A stretch of DNA of 64,000 bases from positions 372,001 to 436,000 of the forward strand of contig JALHMI010000002.1 in NCBI GenBank assembly GCA_022844125.1, written 5' to 3'. How positions within the stretch are numbered: the first letter of the stretch is position 1; every line of letters begins with the position of its first letter. The position numbers and the translations under genes are program-made. The DNA is from Pirellulales bacterium. GTDB lineage: Bacteria > Planctomycetota > Planctomycetia > Pirellulales > PALSA-1355. Under the pieces are notes generated by a model. The model searched no databases and was not told the origin of the DNA. It worked only from the letters and a program-made list of their open reading frames with translations. Of this stretch, positions 56,864-58,866 are shown piece after piece.

Positions 56864-57319
56864 TTACGGCGCCCCCGGATGCTGCCGCTCAATCTCGGAA
56901 ATCTTCTCGACGCGGCGCGCATGGCGACCACCTTCGAAATCGGTTTTCAGCCAGATCTCTACCATCCGATCGATGAGCCGCTCGCCGAGCATATCGGCCG
57001 ATAAACACAGCACATTCAGGTCGTTGTGACGGCGGCTCATCTCGGCCGTTAGATCGTCGTGGCAGGGAGCCGCGCGCACACCGGGAAACTTATTCGCGGC
57101 AATGCACATGCCAATGCCGGTGCCACAAATCAGAATGCCGCGATCAACCTTGCCGCTACTTACGTGACCGCCCACCACTTGTGCGATATCAGGATAGTCG
57201 ACACTTTCGGCCGAATGCGGCCCGACGTCGACAACTTCCTGATTCAGACGATTCAGCAGGTCGATCACCTTGCTCTTGATGACGAAGCCCCGATGATCGC
57301 TGCCAACGGCAATACGCAT
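56864..57319 (-). CDS. rpiB: ribose-5-phosphate isomerase B
   Basis: This 151-residue sugar-phosphate isomerase (RpiB/LacAB family) interconverts ribose-5-P and ribulose-5-P. It opens MRIAVGSDHRGFVIK, with the catalytic Cys region GILICGTGIGMCIAANK and HDDLTAEMSRRHNDLNVL. GGTGGAG precedes the start at 57319. It lies 56 bases downstream of the Sua5/phosphatase fusion, reproducing the ywlC-ywlE-ywlF neighbourhood of Bacillus. Confidence 0.94.
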   Translation of the reverse strand: MRIAVGSDHRGFVIKSKVIDLLNRLNQEVVDVGPHSAESVDYPDIAQVVGGHVSSGKVDRGILICGTGIGMCIAANKFPGVRAAPCHDDLTAEMSRRHNDLNVLCLSADMLGERLIDRMVEIWLKTDFEGGRHARRVEKISEIERQHPGAP

Positions 57320-57375: not shown

Positions 57376-58497
57376 TTACAAATCTAGCTCGGCAACCCGG
57401 CGCTCAAGCTGCGCCTTGATCTGAATCGCACATGTTTCGTAGTACTCCAGCGGCCCGCCGATCGGGTCGGCGATGTCCGACTGATCCAGCGACAGTACAG
57501 CGGTTCGCTGCAGTGCCTCGGGCCAGTGCGAGGCGATTGCCTGCCGATGCGCTCGGGTCATTGTCCAGATATGATCCGCCTGTCGCACGAGCTGGGCGGT
57601 TAACGGCTGCGACTCGTGATCAGCCAGTTCGAGCCCCATCTTGGCCATGACCTGCACGCCTTCGGGGCTTGGACGGGCTCCCATCATGGCCGACAGCCCC
57701 GCGGACATCACGATCACCCCGCGATCTTCAACCTCCGTCGGCTTGCACCCCAGCCGTTTGGCGATCATTGCTCGGCACATGACTTCCGCCATCGGGCTGC
57801 GACAGGTGTTGCCCGTACAAACCAGGACAATCATCAGGCTGGAAAGCCGCCGCAGCGTTGGTTCAGGAACGACCCCCGCTCGCACGATCTCAAACTTCTT
57901 GCCGTCGACGCGCACGACGCTCGAGGGCTGTCCCAGCCGGCTTTGGCCATCGTTCAAAACCAGGTCGACGTTACCGCCCATCGTGGTCAAAACTTGTTCG
58001 GCGGTAATCGGCTCCGGACCTCCGCTCATGTTGGCGCTCGTCAAAACGATCGGTCCGACCAGCATCCGCAAAATGTCGAGCACCATCTGATGGGCCGGAA
58101 CTCGCAAGCCGATTGTCCCGCCAGGACAAACCACCTGCTGAACGGACTTGGGGAGCCGTCTTACCAGGCTTTCGGGATGGCAATCGCCCGCCACGATCGT
58201 CACGGGTCCCGGCCAGCAGCGACGAGCCAGCCGCTGGCCCAAGGGGCTCAGATCGGGCACATAGTCCAGAACGTCGTCCGAGCTGCGGATGGCTAATGCC
58301 AGGCCCTTGCTGGCGCTTCGGGCCTTGGTTTCCATAACGCGAGCCACGGCCGATTCGCTCAGCGCGCTGGCGGCCAGGCCATAGACGGTCTCCGTGGGCA
58401 GCGCAACCAGCTTCCCCTCGGTCAGGGCCTGTACGGCCCGGTGCACCACGTCGCGCGCGTCATCGGCGCTCCGGATATCGATCACAAGGGGGGGCAT
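57376..58497 (-). CDS. fusion of threonylcarbamoyl-AMP synthase (Sua5/YwlC) and LMW protein (arginine) phosphatase (YwlE type)
   Basis: This is a 373-residue two-domain protein. Residues 1-220 are a YrdC/Sua5 domain making threonylcarbamoyl-AMP for tRNA t6A37, with ALPTETVYGLAA, KARSASKGLALAI and PIVLTSANMSGG. Residues 222-373 are a low-molecular-weight phosphatase: P-loop VCTGNTCRSPMAE (Cys227, Arg233) and general acid Asp344 in DPIGG. Thr231 in the loop is the residue that, in YwlE, favours phosphoarginine, so a protein-arginine phosphatase is likely. The frame stays open upstream to 59391, antisense to the MoxR gene; the start at 58497 gives the family N-terminus. Confidence 0.9.
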   Translation of the reverse strand: MPPLVIDIRSADDARDVVHRAVQALTEGKLVALPTETVYGLAASALSESAVARVMETKARSASKGLALAIRSSDDVLDYVPDLSPLGQRLARRCWPGPVTIVAGDCHPESLVRRLPKSVQQVVCPGGTIGLRVPAHQMVLDILRMLVGPIVLTSANMSGGPEPITAEQVLTTMGGNVDLVLNDGQSRLGQPSSVVRVDGKKFEIVRAGVVPEPTLRRLSSLMIVLVCTGNTCRSPMAEVMCRAMIAKRLGCKPTEVEDRGVIVMSAGLSAMMGARPSPEGVQVMAKMGLELADHESQPLTAQLVRQADHIWTMTRAHRQAIASHWPEALQRTAVLSLDQSDIADPIGGPLEYYETCAIQIKAQLERRVAELDL

Positions 58498-58866
58498 ACG
58501 GCAAGGGCTCCGTCTGCCGCCCAGTTGGCGGCCACTTCCATGAGAAATGATGGGGACGCTGGCTGTAGGAATACGGTACTGGCAAGGCGGTTGAGAACGA
58601 GCCCCCGCTGCGCCGCCGGCAGCCTCCTCCCGCTTTCTTGGCTCACCCTGCGTCAGAGGGTGTCTCGCGCGATCGACCCGCCCAGCGAGCCGGTCTGCGC
58701 TTCGAGGCCTCGAACGTAATAGATTACTATAGAGCTTGTTAGGAGCGGTGACAAGCAATTCCCAAAGGCACGCAAGCGAGTCCGCCGGCAATCGGATAGG
58801 ATGAAATCCACCTGCCTCGCCTGGGGGACAGGAGTTCTCTGCCAGCCGGCCAAAGGTTCCCGATCT
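58498..58866. other. divergent intergenic region with regulatory palindrome
   Basis: These 369 bases separate the Sua5 fusion from the moxR-type operon. No gene is seen. Toward the moxR side lie a 14-bp palindrome, an AT-rich dyad and a possible -10 box, described separately. Confidence 0.5.
58701..58730 (+). promoter_or_regulatory. palindrome and possible promoter of the MoxR operon
   Basis: TTCGAGGCCTCGAA (58701-58714) is a perfect 14-bp palindrome. GTAAT-AG-ATTAC (58716-58727) is an adjacent dyad and TACTAT (58725-58730) a possible -10 box. The palindrome lies in the region a -35 box would occupy, as expected for a regulator-binding site. The start codon is 137 bases further on. Confidence 0.4.

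Follow-up and report, generated by a model that had tools for sequence, protein, structure and literature searches.

A Sua5/TsaC – YwlE-type phosphatase fusion beside rpiB in a Pirellulales genome, and its relatives in Planctomycetota and Omnitrophota

Gene and domain organization of the locus

The window, i.e., the whole stretch of 64,000 nucleotides of a Pirellulales bacterium that was analyzed (contig JALHMI010000002.1), carries on its minus strand a gene that joins a Sua5/TsaC domain to a low-molecular-weight (LMW) phosphatase domain, with rpiB downstream. The features are the following:

58508..58511 (−): GGAG, likely ribosome-binding site, 10 nt ahead of the ATG (sequence reading)
57376..58497 (−): Sua5/TsaC – YwlE-type phosphatase fusion gene, 373 aa, a single frame with two Pfam domains
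57874..58431 (−): Sua5/TsaC (YrdC) domain, residues 23-208, of the short type that lacks the C-terminal SUA5 domain (PF01300, Sua5_yciO_yrdC, 156.8 bits; TIGR00057, 143.6 bits)
58318..58326 (−): KxR half of the TsaC catalytic tetrad, K58-A-R60 (alignment; tetrad according to PMC9654439 and PMC3223725)
58030..58038 (−): SxN half of the same tetrad, S154-A-N156 (alignment; same sources)
57406..57831 (−): LMW phosphatase domain, YwlE type, residues 223-364 (PF01451, LMWPc, 80.7 bits, over cut-off; YwlE matches in the PDB; trees)
57796..57819 (−): P-loop CTGNTCRS, residues 227-234, with Thr231 at the pArg/pTyr selectivity position, i.e., YwlE Thr11 (sequence and alignment with YwlE; role of Thr11 from PMC8001253)
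57463..57468 (−): Asp344-Pro345, general acid, i.e., YwlE Asp118 (alignment; constant in 112 fused domains)
56864..57319 (−): rpiB, ribose-5-phosphate isomerase B, 151 aa, 56 nt downstream of the fusion (TIGR01120, 175.7 bits, cut-off 138.65)

The open reading frame runs from an ATG at 58497 to a TAA at 57376-57378 (373 codons), both domains being in-frame, and no in-frame stop occurs over the whole gene (57376-58497). The score of the Sua5 half exceeds the TIGR00057 cut-off (123.2). A MoxR-like gene lies upstream in the opposite orientation. The AlphaFold2 model of the fusion is a single compact, well-packed two-domain protein (mean pLDDT 97.2, pTM 0.91).

An earlier note on this DNA, made from the letters, had described one protein uniting Sua5 and a phosphatase, placed next to rpiB and carrying a Thr in the P-loop CTGNTCR. 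This description is borne out: the domains share a frame and are separated by a linker of ~12 residues, rpiB is on the same strand and over its cut-off, and the Thr is Thr231. A frameshift, or an assembly or sequencing error at the domain junction, is ruled out since the two-domain frame is conserved in 111 distinct planctomycete genomes.

Distribution of the fusion and of its rpiB neighborhood

The phylum-wide genome search found Sua5/LMW relatives in 189 of 199 planctomycete genomes. The presence of the fusion in other planctomycetes, raised in the earlier note, is established: a single-ORF fusion, with a linker of about 12 residues, was confirmed by DNA reading in 111 of the 199 sampled genomes, many of the genomes surveyed being incomplete. 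RpiB is directly downstream in 71 of the 109 planctomycete fusion loci with sufficient flank and in 32 out of 32 Omnitrophota loci. The same fusion is found in Candidatus Omnitrophota (L211, L213, L214, L218), in one genome of Aerophobetes (L215) and in an unplaced bacterium (L259). Two Bacillota loci (L238, L257) encode fusions of a long Sua5 with YwlE, which apparently arose independently.

Among the 117 Omnitrophota genomes, 81 have a full-length one-piece match (3 of these with internal stops), and 16 further genomes have separate adjoining genes, often overlapping, in the order Sua5, phosphatase, RpiB. Both states thus coexist in this phylum, i.e., fusion and adjacency alternate while RpiB stays alongside. 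Switches between the fused and the split state took place several times (about 12 changes). The order Sua5-phosphatase-rpiB, which had been read as a copy of separate genes, does recur unfused in Bacillota and Omnitrophota.

In one planctomycete clade (L170-L176, L220) the phosphatase half is gone and RpiB now adjoins, or lies close to, a short Sua5 that stands alone. This clade nests within the fused clade (97 SH-aLRT). Its sampled members retain the arginine kinase McsB, and an LMW phosphatase was undetected in most of them, which speaks against McsB and the fused phosphatase being necessarily linked.

The fusion could be a by-product of an old tsaC-ywlE-rpiB operon, i.e., the stop between two neighbors was lost and the halves remained uncoupled. 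The genes side by side and often overlapping in Omnitrophota, their ordered counterparts in Bacillota, the repeated switching between states and the grouping of RpiB with the two others without obvious pArg or t6A logic are all consistent with such an origin. On the contrary, the fusion is kept across much of two phyla and has arisen again, independently, with another type of Sua5, and lineages that lost the catalytic tetrad still keep a folded Sua5 half (see below), which a neutral merger would not require. Taken together, a mere by-product is rather improbable, although it is the most serious of the alternatives. A search of open-licence papers found none on the fusion or on planctomycete arginine phosphorylation.

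The Sua5 half: intact in the window, decayed in some lineages

In the alignment, K58, R60, S154, N156 and the other conserved residues of the window's Sua5 half are intact. The C-terminal SUA5 domain is absent, the phosphatase occupying residues 223-364, and the half thus belongs to the TsaC sub-type. The genome encodes two more long Sua5 proteins with intact KxR/SxN, plus HypF (L322 C15, L323 C13, L325 C10). The co-occurrence of TsaC and Sua5 variants has been called rare and unstable (PMC10321239). A role of the fusion as the sole TsaC of this genome is ruled out by the two long Sua5 proteins; hence the fusion need not be the t6A enzyme here. It may be the sole TsaC in other genomes, most fusion genomes having given only one match.

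KxR and SxN are both lost in 15 of the 111 planctomycete fusions. By alignment, these positions are lost too in two further Pirellulaceae relatives (L005, L007), i.e., about 17 cases in total, and the losses correspond to about 7 events on the phosphatase tree. A further Sua5/LMW-like match was obtained in 14 of the 15 genomes with a motif-less fusion vs. 34 of the 96 others (Fisher p 2.3e-5), where «further match» means any Sua5 or LMW relative of the query and is a proxy for a second Sua5. Phylogenetically independent pairs (dead Sua5 vs. second match) nearly all agree, but only ~4 are supported (p about 0.125); with so few events the Fisher p overstates the association. The second match is a long Sua5 with an intact tetrad in both dead-Sua5 genomes that were read (G152, L180; G155, L326).

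The fusion of Neorhodopirellula pilleata, a member of Pirellulaceae (P0002, L205:3001-4311), illustrates this decay: KxR/SxN are missing and a low-complexity insertion interrupts the Sua5 half, while the phosphatase is intact. Its predicted fold is nevertheless confident and matches both Sua5 and YwlE structures. Since the catalytic residues of the phosphatase never change whereas the Sua5 tetrad is repeatedly lost, the phosphatase is the partner that stays constant, and the Sua5 half is capable of turning into a pseudoenzyme. The assignment of this half to tRNA t6A synthesis, made in the earlier note, thus stands in part: the window protein has all four tetrad residues and passes the TIGR00057 threshold, but two other Sua5 proteins are available in this genome and, catalytic residues being lost in some lineages, t6A synthesis is not the constant function.

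It may be asked whether the Sua5 half of the window's genome has itself already left t6A synthesis and become a sensor, a scaffold or a dead enzyme, TC-AMP being made by the two long Sua5 proteins. The intactness of these proteins and the tetrad losses in related Pirellulaceae such as N. pilleata point that way; on the other side, the complete set of conserved residues and the TIGR00057 score of the window protein make it doubtful.

The phosphatase half: relationship with YwlE

The best PDB sequence matches of the phosphatase domain are YwlE structures (4pic, 1zgg, 4kk3). C227, R233 and D344 of the fusion align with C7, R13 and D118 of YwlE, and these three positions are unchanged in 112 out of 112 fused domains in the alignment. 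The equivalent of YwlE Phe120 is Ile in the window protein; among the 112 fused domains it is Ile in 54, Phe in 23 and Tyr in 13. In the fusions of some planctomycetes (L064, L077, L092, L102, L207) the P-loop reads CTGNTDRS or equivalent, i.e., the second P-loop Cys is replaced by Asp; the corresponding residue of YwlE, Cys12, is a redox partner.

The choice between Thr and Ile at the P-loop position PX5 (YwlE Thr11) steers the preference for pArg vs. pTyr (PMC8001253). At this position the 112 fused domains have Thr (83), Ser (13), Leu (7), Ile (5), Arg (3) or Met (1), and canonical solo tyrosine phosphatases (PTPs) of planctomycetes have Ile. As 29 of the 112 domains are without Thr, pArg specificity is not to be assumed for every fused domain. 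In Omnitrophota (L290-L321) Ser is mostly found (CTGNSCRS), whether the domain is fused or not.

In the trees, the fused domains group with YwlE and are separated from Ile-type PTPs (SH-aLRT 99 when PTPs serve as outgroup; 88/85 in a second tree), apart from ArsC as well, the branches inside the fused group being weakly supported. With Foldseek the domain matches YwlE at TMt 0.83-0.90; Wzb-type PTPs fit the model equally well and the structure search does not separate YwlE from Wzb. No arginine-phosphatase model of NCBIfam was matched, the only NCBIfam matches being tyrosine-phosphatase and ArsC models, below cut-off. Apart from the fused one, the genome has a single LMW domain, that of an arsenate reductase (ArsC); the fusion thus holds the sole LMW phosphatase here that is not of the arsenate type. 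The arsenate reductase gene (L042, C1:20667) has as neighbors a gene resembling arsenite methyltransferases and one for a WYL-type regulator.

By its P-loop, DP motif and position in the trees, i.e., on sequence criteria, the phosphatase domain belongs with YwlE and not with Ile-type tyrosine phosphatases, and it probably removes phosphate from arginine. The earlier proposal of a pArg-favoring, YwlE-type enzyme is therefore retained for its affinity, on which alignment and trees agree, although the structure fits Wzb-type proteins equally well; it is not retained as a specificity common to all fusions.

McsB, McsA and ClpC

A McsB-type kinase had been predicted for this genome. It is found on another contig (NF002194, 470 bits, cut-off 385), adjoining McsA, and the genome also encodes a ClpC whose N-domain has both GTEH motifs. 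The kinase is likewise present in the relatives, with 187 of 199 genomes in planctomycetes and 113 of 117 in Omnitrophota; since it is near-universal in both phyla, finding it in a single genome carries little weight. For the same reason the presence of McsB is uninformative as a test of coupling within a phylum and was discarded as such.

McsB was detected in all 17 genomes to which YwlE-type loci (fused, adjacent or solo) had led vs. 5 of 36 for Sua5-only loci, a contrast that is supportive but no proof, as the two groups differ in phylogeny. Three Verrucomicrobia that lack the fusion have McsB as well. The co-occurrence of McsB with YwlE-type phosphatases is thus largely at the level of the phylum. 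In the McsB profile survey Lysinibacillus gave a strong match. The genome named as Bacillus subtilis control gave no PF00217 or PF02861 match; B. subtilis is known to have mcsB and clpC, and the copy searched may lack the mcsB/clpC operon.

That the phosphatase is an ordinary phosphotyrosine or general phosphatase, its Thr incidental and the fusion unrelated to McsB, is unlikely: the replacement of Thr by Ser, Leu, Ile, Arg or Met in roughly one fused domain out of four, the sub-threshold PTP and ArsC matches and the equal fit of Wzb structures speak for it, but Thr prevails where canonical solo PTPs have Ile, the best PDB matches and the trees point to YwlE, and McsB, McsA and ClpC are in the same genome.

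Proposed function

The preferred reading, to which a probability of roughly 60% is given, is that of a two-domain housekeeping protein in which a YwlE-orthologous phosphatase joined to a TsaC-type synthase would be brought to the t6A machinery or controlled by Sua5 ligands. The following steps are proposed: (i) Cys227 would attack the phosphoarginine that McsB, helped by McsA, put on proteins; (ii) Asp344 would serve as the acid and Thr231 would favor pArg over pTyr; (iii) removal of pArg would rescue tagged proteins from ClpCP; (iv) the N-terminal TsaC-type half would make TC-AMP for TsaD.

The functional link between t6A enzymes and pArg, which the gene order had suggested, is published for B. 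subtilis: TsaD is arginine-phosphorylated and its ClpCP-dependent stability is set by McsB and YwlE (Ogura, PMC7546277). TsaD uses the Sua5/TsaC product. The most likely reason for the fusion may thus be the delivery of the phosphatase to the t6A machinery, TsaD being a McsB/YwlE/ClpCP client in B. subtilis, or else its control by ligands of the Sua5 half (threonine, ATP, TC-AMP). The residue that probably corresponds to R282 of B. subtilis TsaD is a conserved Arg in the TsaD of the window's genome. Arg is also found there in Thermotoga TsaD and is thus not diagnostic.

An always intact phosphatase next to a tRNA half whose residues are sometimes lost suggests that the Sua5 half is now also a partner or sensor domain of the phosphatase. 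A more specific version is put forward tentatively, as a possibility with clearly less than even chances: the Sua5/TsaC half would have taken on the role of a client-docking or metabolite-sensing module of the phosphatase, so that removal of pArg degradation tags answers to the supply of threonine, ATP or TC-AMP or is directed to the t6A machinery; in Pirellulaceae such as N. pilleata and in several other lineages it would persist as a pseudo-TsaC devoid of the tetrad, joined to a phosphatase that is always intact.

Protein arginine phosphorylation has been studied almost solely in Gram-positive bacteria. A complete-looking set of kinase, activator, unfoldase and phosphatase is now placed in Planctomycetota and Omnitrophota, and the fusion ties the phosphatase covalently to the enzyme feeding TsaD, a client of the pArg system in B. 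subtilis. Should the Sua5 half guide the phosphatase or act as its sensor, a single molecule would connect proteolytic tagging with the fidelity of translation, and the dead-Sua5 lineages would be a ready natural experiment.

Comparison with known systems

The window domain shares with YwlE of Bacillus and Geobacillus (4kk3, 4pic) the LMW-PTP fold, CTGNTCRS, the selectivity Thr, the DP acid and a genome containing McsB and ClpC. It differs in being the C-terminal part of a Sua5/TsaC protein, in having Ile for Phe120 and by its sequence (~33% identity).

HypF and TobZ also contain a TsaC-like domain within a larger protein (PMC10321239, PMC9654439). In their case, however, YrdC is joined to a Kae1-like transferase, and a phosphatase partner is unmentioned in these two papers.

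As in the TsaC/Sua5 L-threonylcarbamoyladenylate synthases (TIGR00057), the YrdC fold and the KxR/SxN tetrad are intact. On the contrary, the window protein is devoid of the SUA5 C-terminal domain, has a phosphatase after a ~12-residue linker and coexists with two further long Sua5 proteins.

The LMW phosphatase 4egs of T. tengcongensis, labeled RpiB in the PDB, is another YwlE-like phosphatase tied to RpiB; its label presumably indicates a join to RpiB, not to Sua5.

In Bacillus, ywlD (mntP) sits between ywlC and ywlE, and the Lysinibacillus locus L239 has a gap of ~670 nt. The window has the same three genes in the same order as ywlC – ywlE – ywlF (rpiB) of B. subtilis, separate versions being found in Bacillota (L227, L241, L267) and in Omnitrophota; the difference is that in the window the first two genes are fused.
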